Shown here: positions 1,111 to 51,827 of the stretch, in pieces
Position numbering within the stretch: the first letter of the stretch is position 1
How the letters are laid out: every line of letters begins with the position of its first letter
Assembly: GCF_002744755.1 (NCBI RefSeq)
Contig: NZ_KZ319287.1
Location: 124,001-188,000 of the forward strand
Source: Leeuwenhoekiella nanhaiensis
Lineage (GTDB): Bacteria; Bacteroidota; Bacteroidia; Flavobacteriales; Flavobacteriaceae
Reading direction: 5' to 3'
Length of the DNA: 64,000 nucleotides
Notes under the pieces: model-generated
What the model saw: only the letters and a program-made list of their open reading frames with translations
Databases searched by the model: none
Told to the model about the DNA's origin: nothing
Position numbers and translations under genes: made by a program

Positions 1111-2036
1111 TGGCAGCGAAGCGCTCTAATAACGACATTGAATTGAACGACCTTAAAGAAGGTGTAAAATCGGGCTTTAATGCTGTTGGGATGTTCGTTT
1201 TTAGATGTTTGCGCTTTTTGCTAAAGCGGGTCCTGATAATTGGTATTTTACTTTTAGCAGGTATTGGCCTGGGATTAATTTGGCAGCTGGCTACTTCGAC
1301 ACCCCAAAAAGCAGAACTGCTTGTAAAACTAAATGCCGGCAGTACCGCCTATGTTTATAATGCGGTTGAAAATTTTGAGCAGAGCTCAGACTTTCCTCGT
1401 ATTCAATCCGTACAAATTGAACCGGTTGTGGATCTTTCTGAGATACTTGAGAAATTTAAAGTGCTTGATGACGAGCAGATTATGATGTTTCTCGATGAGG
1501 TAAACAGTTCAAAGCCGCTTTTAAAGTCTGAAGAACTGCGATCTAACTACGAACTACACAAGATCGATCTGATTGTAGATGAGAATGCAAATCCAGAAGA
1601 TGCAACGGGTGTTTTAAAGCTTTTTTCCCAAAGCGAATATTATCAAAAACAACTTGCTGAAACACAAAAAATCAATACTTCTCAAATTGAGTCCAATACC
1701 TTTGCGATTGCTCAGATAGACAGTATGTTGATTAACATGAACAGAAGTCTAAAGGAAACTAAAGGAGGTGGCACGTACACCAATTACGAAGATTTTGATT
1801 TGGCTTCCTTACTTTGGGTTAAGGATTCTATCTTTAAAAAGAACAGACTTTTAATTGCCCAGAACAGGGTGGGCAATTGTTTGGTTTGCGTTGTCAATAC
1901 GCCCAAACTGATCCAGAATAAAACACTATTTCACTACAAGGCGCTTTGGTTACCCATTTTACTAATTACGGTTTATCTGTTATTAAGCGTAGTCATTAGA
2001 TTTTATCAAAAAACCGCTTCACGTATTGATGAATGA
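1110..2036 (+). CDS. Wzz-like chain length determinant / polysaccharide co-polymerase-like protein
   Basis: 308 aa inner-membrane protein. It has a charged cytoplasmic start, a first membrane helix at about residues 41-59, a long extracytoplasmic region with helical coiled segments (about 130-230), and a second helix at about 279-298 followed by a short basic tail. Two helices flanking a coiled periplasmic domain is the topology of Wzz/PCP proteins, which set polysaccharide chain length with a Wzy polymerase. No fused tyrosine kinase domain is present, so it is of the short Wzz type if the call is right. The start overlaps the upstream stop and its own stop overlaps the flippase start (ATGA), so it sits in one operon with the glycan genes. 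The sequence is divergent; topology and context carry the call. Confidence 0.65.
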   Translation: MAAKRSNNDIELNDLKEGVKSGFNAVGMFVFRCLRFLLKRVLIIGILLLAGIGLGLIWQLATSTPQKAELLVKLNAGSTAYVYNAVENFEQSSDFPRIQSVQIEPVVDLSEILEKFKVLDDEQIMMFLDEVNSSKPLLKSEELRSNYELHKIDLIVDENANPEDATGVLKLFSQSEYYQKQLAETQKINTSQIESNTFAIAQIDSMLINMNRSLKETKGGGTYTNYEDFDLASLLWVKDSIFKKNRLLIAQNRVGNCLVCVVNTPKLIQNKTLFHYKALWLPILLITVYLLLSVVIRFYQKTASRIDE

Positions 2037-47592: not shown

Positions 47593-49116
47593 TTAGAACC
47601 TTAGGTTTATACCGGTGTATAGCCCCATATAATAGGGCTTAAAGTCGCTTACGCCTTTAGTATAGGCATTGAGCTGATATTTAAACATAGGCTCCAGATT
47701 AAATTCAATCGCAGGAGTAATGCGATAATCAAAGCCCAGACCTATGTTAGTGCTAAAACTGGTGTTATTTAAACTATTTGACGAGCCCAATTCGGTAGAA
47801 AAACGCGAACCCTCTTCTAAAATAACGGAATCATTATTCAGAAATAGCGTACTGAAACCCCCTATAATCTGCATCCCGAATTTGTTGTCAACCAATGCAT
47901 ATTCAGCCTCAAGCGGAACTTCAATATAGCCCAGCTGCTGGCGTAATGTACTTGATGACTCTGAAGTGTTCATAATGAAAGCCGATGAAAATTCTTCGGC
48001 AGCAGGGGCATTAGGAATTGAATTTGCGGTATTCATCCTGTTGCTAAACGTGGAAACCTGCACCTGAGATGCACTCTTATTATAATCAATACTGCGCAAT
48101 GAACTTGCCTGAATACTTGGGGTGAAAGCCACTTGCTCGGTGCGGTAACCCAGATCTACGCGGTTTACACCCGCTCTCAGCTTCAACTTATCATTAAGGG
48201 CATAACTTACCTGAACGCCATAGCTCAAATTAACATCACCGCGTTTTGCATTATCTGCAAATTGGGGATCAATACCTGAGCCTCCAAAGTCACCGTAATA
48301 CACAGGAGCAACTAAAGGAGCGATGCCCCAACGATTCGCTTTTTGAGTTTCAGGGTCTTCTGTATTTGTATCAGCAATTGCTTCTTCTCGGTTTGCCAGA
48401 CGCAGTAATTCGTCAGGATCTTTTGCGGTCTCCTGATCTTTTTCCTGCTCTTGAGTAGTTGCAGCCACCGCGTCCTGAGTTGTATTTGTTTCGGTATTTA
48501 AACCAGCATCTGAAGATTTAGAATTTGAGGTCTCAGTGTTGTTAGTATTGTTGACTGCGTTCTGGGGTTTATTGTTTCCGCTTTGCGAAAAGGCTACAGC
48601 ATCATTGCTTTTTGAATTATCAGAAGGTTGATATGGGGCAGGTGTGTTTGTTTTGGGTCGATTTGCGTTTGCAAACTGACTTTCGCCCGAAGCTTTAGAA
48701 TTGGAACTCACCTGCTCTTCCTGCTCAGTCCTGATTTCTTCACTTGCAACGGCATTAGACTGACCCGAAACAGAGTCAGTTGATTCATCTTCCGTTCGCT
48801 GATTTGGCGTTTGTTCCGCAGCAACCTCAGTTGGTGAATTTGTGCTTTCGCCTGATGCATCAGTATCTTTAGACGGTTCTTCCTGAACCAATTTGGGTGA
48901 GCCCGTATGCTGCGTATCAAAAACGAAATTACCTGCAAATAGTAATAAGGCAAGAACAGCGGCAACACCACCCAGTTTCATCCAGAGCGGGATCACGCGC
49001 TTGCGCTTTTGTTTTTCACGCGCAGCGATAGACTCCCAAACGTGAGGGCCGGGTTGTGCTTCAAAGTCTTTAAACTTCTCCTGAAACAGTCTGTCTATGT
49101 TCTTCTTTTCTTTCAC
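47593..49116 (-). CDS. Inner-membrane-anchored protein with C-terminal outer-membrane-type beta-barrel domain
   Basis: 507 aa. A soluble start (residues 1-40; LFQEKFKDFEAQPGPHVWESIA) resembles the N-terminal stretch of Bacteroidota anti-sigma-like proteins; one helix at about 45-65; a long Ser/Thr/Asn/Gln/Glu-rich low-complexity linker (about 75-250); then a PorT/OmpA-like beta-barrel region to the end (repeated amphipathic strands, terminal GLYTGINLRF with a final Phe). The gene follows the ECF sigma gene by 25 bases, so it may control that factor. How one chain could span both membranes is not clear. Confidence 0.82.
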   Translation of the reverse strand: MKEKKNIDRLFQEKFKDFEAQPGPHVWESIAAREKQKRKRVIPLWMKLGGVAAVLALLLFAGNFVFDTQHTGSPKLVQEEPSKDTDASGESTNSPTEVAAEQTPNQRTEDESTDSVSGQSNAVASEEIRTEQEEQVSSNSKASGESQFANANRPKTNTPAPYQPSDNSKSNDAVAFSQSGNNKPQNAVNNTNNTETSNSKSSDAGLNTETNTTQDAVAATTQEQEKDQETAKDPDELLRLANREEAIADTNTEDPETQKANRWGIAPLVAPVYYGDFGGSGIDPQFADNAKRGDVNLSYGVQVSYALNDKLKLRAGVNRVDLGYRTEQVAFTPSIQASSLRSIDYNKSASQVQVSTFSNRMNTANSIPNAPAAEEFSSAFIMNTSESSSTLRQQLGYIEVPLEAEYALVDNKFGMQIIGGFSTLFLNNDSVILEEGSRFSTELGSSNSLNNTSFSTNIGLGFDYRITPAIEFNLEPMFKYQLNAYTKGVSDFKPYYMGLYTGINLRF

Positions 49117-49141: not shown

Positions 49142-49678
49142 TTATGAGGTCCTGGATTGCGTTTGAAAGTGTTCTACTTTTTGTTTCAAAATCATTCGGG
49201 CACGTGCCAGATTTGATTTTGAAGTCCCTTCACTAATCTCAAGCATAGTTGCAATTTCTTTATGCGAATAACCATCTAGGGCATAAAGGTTAAAAACAAG
49301 TCGGTACCTGTCGGGTAATTCCTGTACGATTTTGAGTAAAAATTGTAATGAAACATCTTCTTCATCAACCAGAACATCTTCCTGTTCAATTTGCTCTTCA
49401 TTTACAATATTAAAAACACGCTGCTTTCTATAGCGCTGCAAAGCGGTATTAATTACAATACGTTTTAGCCAGCCTTCAAACGAACCTTTGTGTTTGTACT
49501 GAGCTATTTTGTCAAAAATTGTGATAAACCCATCCTGCAAGATATCTTCTGCTTCGGTATAATTACGAGCGTATTTCAAAGACACAGAGAACAGTGTATT
49601 TGCGTAACGCCTGTACAACTGAGCCTGTGCCTTTGTATCTTTTTTAATGCATTTCTTGATGAGTTCGTCCAGACTCAC
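49142..49678 (-). CDS. ECF-type RNA polymerase sigma factor
   Basis: 178 aa. Region 2: YRRYANTLFSVSLKYARNYTEAEDILQDGFITIF (in part), with the DxLQDxF motif of sigma-70 region 2; region 4: LPDRYRLVFNLYALDGYSHKEIATMLEISEGTSKS, a helix-turn-helix for the -35 element. It directs RNA polymerase to an unknown regulon. The membrane protein downstream is the probable regulator. An upstream lipoprotein gene lies 21 bases away. Confidence 0.95.
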   Translation of the reverse strand: MSLDELIKKCIKKDTKAQAQLYRRYANTLFSVSLKYARNYTEAEDILQDGFITIFDKIAQYKHKGSFEGWLKRIVINTALQRYRKQRVFNIVNEEQIEQEDVLVDEEDVSLQFLLKIVQELPDRYRLVFNLYALDGYSHKEIATMLEISEGTSKSNLARARMILKQKVEHFQTQSRTS

Positions 49679-49699: not shown

Positions 49700-50113
49700 T
49701 TAACCCTTCACAGGTATGGTGTCTGTTATAAATAGATCTTCACCATTTTCGTCTTCACCTGCATAGAATTTAAAGATATAATCGTAATTATATCGGGTTT
49801 CAAAAGGCAGATAAACAGATACGGTATCTGTTGGGGTATCTGTACACATTTCTTCCTCATACACCCCTTCAAAAACATAAATTAAACGCGTACTATCCTG
49901 ACGCGCATAGTCAAAATCATAAAAGTAATTACAGCTTGTAGGGGAGACATAACGAATTTTAAAGTTATAACGCTGACCCCAAACCAGTGTGTCTGGCAAC
50001 TCATAATCAACTACAGGTTGTAATTCATAATTGATCTGTACACGGTCATCATCAAGTGAACAGGAGGTGATTAATCCCAGTAGGGCTAAAATTAAAAAAA
50101 CCTTTTTCATCAT
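49700..50113 (-). CDS. Hypothetical lipoprotein (DUF6452-like)
   Basis: 137 aa. Signal peptide ending in ITSC (Cys18), then SLDDDR. The mature part is beta-rich with two further cysteines (in SPTSCNYFYDF and EEEMCTD) that could form a disulfide. It looks like a small Bacteroidota lipoprotein family found near recA and the sigma gene; DUF6452 is a tentative name only. Confidence 0.72.
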   Translation of the reverse strand: MMKKVFLILALLGLITSCSLDDDRVQINYELQPVVDYELPDTLVWGQRYNFKIRYVSPTSCNYFYDFDYARQDSTRLIYVFEGVYEEEMCTDTPTDTVSVYLPFETRYNYDYIFKFYAGEDENGEDLFITDTIPVKG

Positions 50114-50177
50114 TTAAATATTTACCTGGTAGATACCTAAAGATGAAAAAGGTTGCGTCAAAGGCTGAATTTTTTTC

Positions 50178-51188: not shown

Positions 51189-51292
51189 AAGATTTAATGT
51201 CTTTACCCCTGTGACGGGGATTTTAATTTTGAAGTTTTCTAAAAATCTAATGTTTCTGTATTAGACCTGAAATAACCTCATTTTACAAGCCG

Positions 51293-51323: not shown

Positions 51324-51499
51324 TGAAAGCAGACTTAAATATTGGAAAAATTCCGTAGAAAACAGCTATAGGCGAGAATATTTCTGATAAAAATGGAATA
51401 ATTCCTAGTTTAAAAAAGTTTTTACTCTCATCAGGCAACCTTTTGAGTATTTGTGCATCTCTACATCAAACGTAAAATCTGTAAAGCTATGATGCAGAA

Positions 51500-51667
51500 A
51501 TTACAAACCCTGTGTTGCGGTAGTTATGCGTTTACGCGTATAAGTATGTATTGCAACTTTAAGCTGGACGGCGGTTAATAGTGCTTTTTGAGATAATCAA
51601 AAAATATTAACTGAATTAGCCGTTCAAGAAAATGCCCCCAGGTGATACCTGCGGGCATTTTTTTATT
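51500..51667 (+). ncRNA. Structured noncoding RNA candidate with intrinsic terminator
   Basis: No credible reading frame lies between recA and trhO, yet plus-strand sequence folds strongly. Arm 1: 51514-51522 pairs with 51549-51557 (9 bp) and encloses TATGCG/CGCGTA (51525-51530/51535-51540). Arm 2: 51566-51572 with 51619-51625, then 51573-51580 with 51605-51612 (8 bp), then TTTTTGA/TCAAAAA (51585-51591/51597-51603) with loop GATAA. A terminator hairpin at 51630-51660 plus T7 follows. The 5' end is not fixed. It is not tmRNA, SRP RNA or RNase P RNA by their usual core motifs; 6S-Flavo or Flavo-1 families are possible but I cannot test them. Confidence 0.65.
51630..51664 (+). terminator. Intrinsic terminator of the 51.5 kb RNA
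   Basis: AAATGCCC-C-CAGGT-GAT-ACCTG-C-GGGCATTT followed by TTTT; 13 base pairs with one C/C mismatch. No coding gene on the plus strand precedes it for more than 4 kb. Confidence 0.88.
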
Positions 51668-51692
51668 GCCAACGTACGCATATTATCATCGG

Positions 51693-51724
51693 TTTGCCCT
51701 AAACGTCTAAAAACTGTACTTTTG
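51693..51724 (+). promoter_or_regulatory. trhO: Promoter of trhO, consensus Bacteroidota type
   Basis: TTTG (51693-51696), 20 bases, TACTTTTG (51717-51724): exact match to both boxes at preferred spacing. The start site would be near 51731, giving a leader of about 97 bases that contains C/G-rich CCGGGG segments. Confidence 0.75.
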
Positions 51725-51827
51725 CAGCGTTTTTTAATCCCTTTCCGGGGATTTGAATACTACATTGTTATAAATCACGCTCCGGGGGCATACCTCGGGG
51801 GTTCTTTAATCTTAAATCGCGTATAGC

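Follow-up and report, generated by a model that had tools for sequence, protein, structure and literature searches.

MicA, RybB and MicL are sigmaE-dependent small RNAs of enterobacteria, and SgrS/SgrT and RNAIII are dual-function RNAs, that is, short structured stress RNAs with a small open reading frame (ORF). In Bacteroides thetaiotaomicron, Dma/Das has been described as an ECF21 sigma factor with a dual membrane-spanning anti-sigma factor (PMC13088901), and among the Rfp sRNAs of Flavobacterium psychrophilum, Rfp11 is listed with an ECF-type promoter (PMC9723704).

We analysed a window of 64,000 nucleotides (the whole stretch of DNA) from Leeuwenhoekiella nanhaiensis, a member of the Flavobacteriaceae. 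The plus strand of its recA-trhO gap holds a candidate element composed of a promoter, a small ORF, a hairpin enclosing the stop codon and a terminator. The element begins at the promoter, 5' of position 51500, where a preliminary description of the gap had placed its start, and finishes at about 51666. Like MicA, RybB and MicL, it would be a short stand-alone transcript with a terminator, its predicted driver is an autoregulated envelope-stress ECF sigma factor, and the rest of the predicted regulon consists of envelope proteins; unlike in these RNAs, what is conserved here is an ORF of 30 codons whose stop lies in a hairpin, and the phylum is a different one. It resembles SgrS/SgrT and RNAIII as a short, structured, predicted stress RNA bearing a small ORF, but here the hairpin overlaps the ORF end. 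As in Dma/Das, the sigma factor gene adjoins that of an anti-sigma factor with an N-terminal domain, a transmembrane helix, a disordered tether and a C-terminal barrel (PMC13088901). In contrast to Dma/Das, the present pair is recA-linked, belongs to the Flavobacteriaceae and is preceded by a lipoprotein gene; the term sRNA is absent from PMC13088901, and here the predicted target is a small ORF or RNA. With the Rfp sRNAs the element shares a predicted independent structured transcript in Flavobacteriaceae (PMC9723704); ten genomes of the probable genus Flavobacterium lack the element upstream of trhO, and for this reason a promoter assigned to yceA/trhO in F. psychrophilum SM6 was excluded as evidence.

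In our best reading, to which we give a probability of roughly 0.6, an envelope-sensing ECF regulon includes this element as a self-contained micro-mRNA coding for a peptide of about 30 residues. By analogy, it would be placed and controlled like the sigmaE-dependent small RNAs, but coding.

Promoter, sigma operon and predicted regulon

The features of the locus are as follows, with their basis in brackets.

51435-51460, plus strand: ECF-type promoter GCAACCTTTTGAGTATTTGTGCATCT (GCAACC-N15-CATCT) (pattern sites in the same genome and in family gaps)
51489-51578, plus strand: small ORF of 29 codons and TAA, MMQKLQTLCCGSYAFTRISMYCNFKLDGG before the stop (homologues, HMM match, coding tests)
51514-51557, plus strand: arm 1, a predicted, unconserved hairpin within the ORF body (genus alignment, fold z)
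51565-51626, plus strand: stop-codon hairpin (folds, z-scores against shuffles, pair counts)
51627-51666, plus strand: intrinsic terminator AAAAUGCCCCCAGG..CCUGCGGGCAUUUUUUU (fold, homologue folds)
51693-51724, plus strand: trhO's own housekeeping-type promoter (TTTG ... TACTTTTG, TAnnTTTG type), outside the element (sequence)
50131-50156, minus strand: ECF-type promoter (GCAACCTTTTTCATCTTTAGGTATCT) before the sigma operon (same pattern, kept in relatives)
49700-50113, minus strand: lipoprotein with the lipoprotein signal MMKKVFLILALLGLITSCSLDDD, first gene of the sigma operon (ORF)
49142-49678, minus strand: ECF sigma factor (Pfam Sigma70_r2 and Sigma70_r4_2, TIGR02937 sigma70-ECF)
47593-49116, minus strand: Dma-like anti-sigma factor (Pfam OMP_b-brl_2, AlphaFold model)

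Beyond recA lies an operon that runs from the lipoprotein through the ECF sigma factor to the anti-sigma factor, with the same promoter in front. The genes for both factors follow recA, behind this promoter, in all 20 relatives compared, including three without the element, and a related lipoprotein at the operon start was detected in most of the 20. Among the ECF-type models of Pfam and NCBIfam, only general ones pass their cut-offs for the sigma factor. The AlphaFold model of the anti-sigma factor places helices at residues 5-35, two short ones N-terminal to a long helix (44-67) that fits a membrane span, followed by disorder (67-236) and strands (263-506). Its mean pLDDT is 57 because the disordered tether is long, and most of the C-terminal strands reach 78-95. 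As modelled, the protein shows each part of the Dma layout, from the N-terminal domain to the C-terminal beta barrel.

The genome itself contains ten exact GCAACC-N15-YATCT sites, against 0 for the reversed control pattern. One of the ten precedes the element, one the sigma operon and one (L326) no clear gene start, while the remaining sites precede genes starting with a lipoprotein signal or, at L327, with a fragment of one. One near match besides (L162) lies before a lipoprotein gene; the loci with lipoprotein-type sites are L158, L160, L161, L162, L323, L324, L325 and L327. We further assembled 100 distinct recA-trhO gaps of Flavobacteriaceae with a covariance model and a TrhO search, for which 80 upstream regions were fetched. 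A site of this promoter type was found in 71 of them; 41 gaps have the ORF, in 38 cases together with the promoter, 33 have the promoter without the ORF and 26 have neither, fractions that are not frequencies in nature because the sample is enriched for element matches. When 84,980 genomes were scanned for the promoter combined with GCTATGAA, 119 stretches were returned; the 80 loci listed hold 82 sites, of which 67 are at the element and 8 at the sigma operon, while the other 7 belong to six lipoprotein-like genes and one RNA-like element at different places. A mini-ORF at GCTATGAA was tried as a partner coupled to the conserved ORF and rejected, since the distances ranged from -93 to +196 with nothing fixed. 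At another locus, in Flavobacterium sp. Sd200 (L241, about 1760-1830, minus strand), the same promoter stands before GCTATGAAAAAGAAA, after which come a hairpin and a terminator, with neither recA nor trhO near.

The comparison with ECF-controlled stress RNAs is thus borne out in that the element has its own ECF-type promoter common to the sigma operon, its own terminator and no fixed downstream gene. The earlier proposal that the gap forms a plus-strand transcription unit of its own is plausible, because a dedicated ECF-type promoter is predicted at 51435-51460, with the terminator at the other end. Because this promoter is shared with lipoprotein genes and the sigma operon, the element probably belongs to an envelope-stress response.

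The small ORF and the stop-codon hairpin

The preliminary description saw no credible gene in the gap. This was wrong: a conserved 29-codon ORF extends from the ATG at 51489 to the TAA at 51576-51578, and an ORF listing at 60 amino acids misses a gene of this size. The ORF runs through arm 1 and stops inside the base of hairpin 2, whose arm starts in the last codons. A longer ORF of 64 codons (51632-51826), which overlaps the terminator, was not accepted as a gene. Homologous ORFs comprise 27-33 codons and end in [K/R]-x-D-G-G-stop, and a peptide profile HMM matches window positions 51489-51575 with an E value of 2.1e-9, the window sequence being itself in the profile. In the window genus, the length of about 29 codons and the ending C-x-x-[KR]-[LM]-D-G-G-stop are kept; the N-terminal part is poorly conserved, with an alignment-wide pN/pS of 0.70. 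Constraint is strongest on the last five codons (pN/pS 0.19 and 0.21), and the hairpin constrains the same codons too. Outside the window genus the peptide is more uniform, with the consensus MKFFKKxIFNxALGVSVAVxVNSNCKADGG. The window peptide and that of one relative gave 0 family matches in Pfam and NCBIfam.

Coding tests favoured the reading frame of the ORF. In an alignment of 22 ORFs from other genera, codons that had changed gave a mean BLOSUM62 score of 1.02 in frame, compared with 0.02 and -0.25 in the other frames, and none of 300 column permutations reached the in-frame value. The same test was weaker in the window genus (-0.01 in frame versus -0.56 and -0.04; 1 of 300 permutations). 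Between close pairs of this genus, nonsynonymous differences per site were clearly fewer than synonymous ones, at about 0.3-0.4 of them, for example in L001/L002; the counts were 10.7/71.3 nonsynonymous versus 6.3/15.7 synonymous for L001/L002, 6.0/70.3 versus 4.0/16.7 for L006/L008, and 5.0/70.5 versus 10.0/19.5 for L011/L020. On this comparative evidence, the conserved core is a small ORF under coding-type evolution. The structured RNA proposed earlier therefore holds good for its conserved hairpin 2, and not as an RNA without a gene, the core being an ORF with its stop in that hairpin and arm 1 being incidental.

The plus strand from 51500 to 51670 has a predicted fold of -57.5 kcal/mol against -37.2 +/- 3.7 for shuffled sequences (z -5.5; 0 of 200 as low), and the two arms and the terminator drawn in the preliminary description all fold as drawn; hairpin 2 and the terminator are conserved, whereas arm 1 is not conserved in the genus alignment. 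The fold z of the ORF body averages -1.69 in 39 homologues and is -0.5 in the window. For the stop-codon hairpin, the mean z against shuffled sequence is -4.69, with values below -2 in 36 of the 39 homologues. It pairs UGGACGGC (codons L-D-G) with GCCGUUCA, with an inner stem and loop between them, and an alternative register pairs GGUUAA (the last Gly and the stop) with UUAGCC. The window genus keeps UGGACGGYGGYUAR ... UGAAUUAGCCGUUCA together with the terminator, and a terminator hairpin with a U-run lies 3' of the stop-codon hairpin in the homologues folded.

A fixed-register alignment revealed no covariation beyond shuffles, because 1-nt bulges shift the register. When bulges were allowed, the hairpin's own arms paired at 7.07 of 9 positions versus 6.38 for swapped arms, and none of 5000 swaps was as good. 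In a model-fitted alignment of 75 matches, which leans towards structure, includes two reverse-strand rows and was compared with shuffles that ignore relatedness, 86.5% of paired cells were pairs versus 85.1 +/- 0.3 in shuffles and at most 51.9% when slid, and both-sided changes numbered 12 versus 5.0 in shuffles (1 of 500). These features of the alignment leave the support from pair counts moderate, and RNAalifold predicted no structure on this gapped alignment with its two reverse-strand rows. Taken together, the sequence comparisons indicate that hairpin 2 is a real conserved hairpin, with compensatory changes that are present yet modest.

It had been suggested that the RNA might be 6S-Flavo, Flavo-1 or new. 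It is neither of the two named families, because no Rfam family reaches its threshold; there were 0 matches above the gathering threshold in the window, which is consistent with novelty, and 0 in 20 homologous loci of different kinds. The best sub-threshold match in the gap was trpB, at 31.9 bits versus a cut-off of 59. We found no report of the element in the open-access literature.

Distribution and competing readings

A DNA search, run first against 40 relatives and then in the window genus, identified real homologues in 11 of the 13 genomes of that genus. In one genome (G007) the recA-trhO gap lacks the element, and in another (G012) it is missing from the region before trhO. A covariance model built from the window genus and run over the family finds the element in other genera and also picks chance terminators near E 0.001-0.01; eight loci were set aside as apparent chance matches (L013, L014, L032, L036, L037, L039, L040 and L043). 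Many marine flavobacteria have the element next to recA. Among the carriers with a name are Olleya, Gelidibacter, Tamlana, Bizionia, Lacinutrix, Psychroserpens, Mangrovimonas and Hanstruepera. An order-wide profile search gave no convincing match beyond the Flavobacteriaceae; the one match outside the family (G470) has two internal stops and an E value of 0.008. Degenerate ORF copies with frameshifts or stops occur at three loci (L226, L249 and L143, the last with a palindromic insertion), where promoter and terminator remain. Because the ORF is degenerate at these loci and missing in G007, and because further genera retain the promoter with a structured RNA but no such ORF, the peptide cannot be essential to the role of the locus.

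A form without the ORF, at the same place and with the same promoter, was seen at seven loci (L087, L091, L095, L096, L103, L116 and L130); it contains hairpins, often CTAACTCAA, with an arm TTCCTTTTT facing GCTATGAAAAAGAAAA, and then a terminator. This form, which is present in many genera, has no Rfam match.

The strongest rival to the micro-mRNA is a regulatory RNA within the envelope-stress regulon that would act by base pairing, as MicA, RybB and MicL do, and whose ORF would be secondary or lineage-specific. It owes this rank to the roughly one-third of sampled gaps that keep the promoter and the place, in most cases together with a structured RNA, and lack the DGG ORF. Non-coding forms contain CUAACUC as well as an arm UUCCUUUUU, opposite GCUAUGAAAAAG, that could pair with lipoprotein start regions, and the 3' side of the hairpin, GAAUUAGCCGUUC, hardly varies in the window genus. 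The clear coding signature and the in-frame ORF of the ORF-bearing form argue against it, and we regard it as possible but doubtful.

A peptide-RNA regulator of a new, coupled type, in which slow or stalled ribosomes at the invariant [KR]-x-D-G-G-stop would hold the hairpin open and thereby set the activity of the stress RNA, seems rather unlikely. If it were true, translation of a 30-codon ORF would directly set an RNA controlled by an outer-membrane-sensing sigma factor.

The succession of ORF, hairpin and terminator is also the classic layout of a leader peptide or attenuator, and trhO lies downstream in the same orientation, its distance from the promoter being usually 216-631 bp. However, an intact ORF is followed by unrelated genes at three loci, which we take to be U32-peptidase-like (L196), FeoB-like (L201) and oxidoreductase-like (L261), so a conserved downstream gene to be regulated is not found, and a reverse-strand gene sits between the terminator and trhO at two others (L002 and L003). 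A TAnnTTTG-like promoter box precedes trhO both in gaps that have the element and in gaps that lack it, the sigma operon adjoins recA in every genome sampled even where the element is missing, and hairpin and terminator fold side by side among the minimum-energy folds inspected in homologues, with no antiterminator alternative seen. Since the element persists at loci that lack a downstream trhO, it is more than a leader of that gene, and control of trhO by attenuation is decidedly unlikely.

The constraint on the last five codons, the stop codon within the hairpin, and the near-constant length of about 30 residues with a poorly conserved N-terminus in the window genus would also suit an arrest peptide, which by stalling at [KR]xDGG-stop would hold the hairpin open and so change what happens to the RNA or make its 3' arm accessible. 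Outside the window genus, however, the N-terminal part is conserved too, and no downstream switch was identified; this makes arrest very improbable. A minimal lipoprotein, with a signal peptide ending in Cys-Lys-Ala-Asp-Gly-Gly, deserves almost no credence: most other regulon members are lipoproteins and some genera show a lipobox-like N[SG][NS]C, but Asn at -3 is unfit for a lipobox, the window peptide has no hydrophobic signal segment, and several homologues (L025, L042 and L144) lack Cys at their ends.

Further features were noted on either side of the element. Around the trhO start codon, nearly all genomes share an almost unchanged TATAGCATGCAACTGTACAA, bases 5' of the ATG included, and the trhO 5' leader contains a GC-rich inverted repeat (CTCCGGGGGCATACCTCGGGG, window 51736-51800) with a counterpart in L002. 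On the minus strand, a small hairpin (CCCCGTCACAGGGG, 51203-51222) sits in the recA mRNA leader shortly 5' of the start codon; its stem varies on both sides within the genus (CCCC/GGGG, ACCT/AGGT and AAACTC/GAGTTT).

A model for the proposed micro-mRNA and its meaning

For the preferred reading, a micro-mRNA that codes for a small peptide, we propose the following course of events. Envelope stress at the outer membrane would, via the membrane-spanning anti-sigma factor, free the recA-adjacent sigma factor, which would then transcribe its own operon, the lipoprotein genes and the micro-mRNA. Ribosomes would produce the small basic peptide as the main product, opening the stop-codon hairpin meanwhile; the hairpin would refold and, with the terminator, cap the 3' end. 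The peptide may perhaps feed back on the sensor or on membrane machinery for the envelope response, a step that is a guess.

On this reading, a widespread small gene new to Rfam, Pfam and NCBIfam would join the predicted regulon of a Dma-type sigma/anti-sigma pair, and the Flavobacteriaceae would gain a candidate equivalent of the sigmaE-dependent small RNAs. It also provides a concrete promoter motif and a predicted regulon, lipoproteins and one micro-gene, both open to testing in marine strains that can be cultured.
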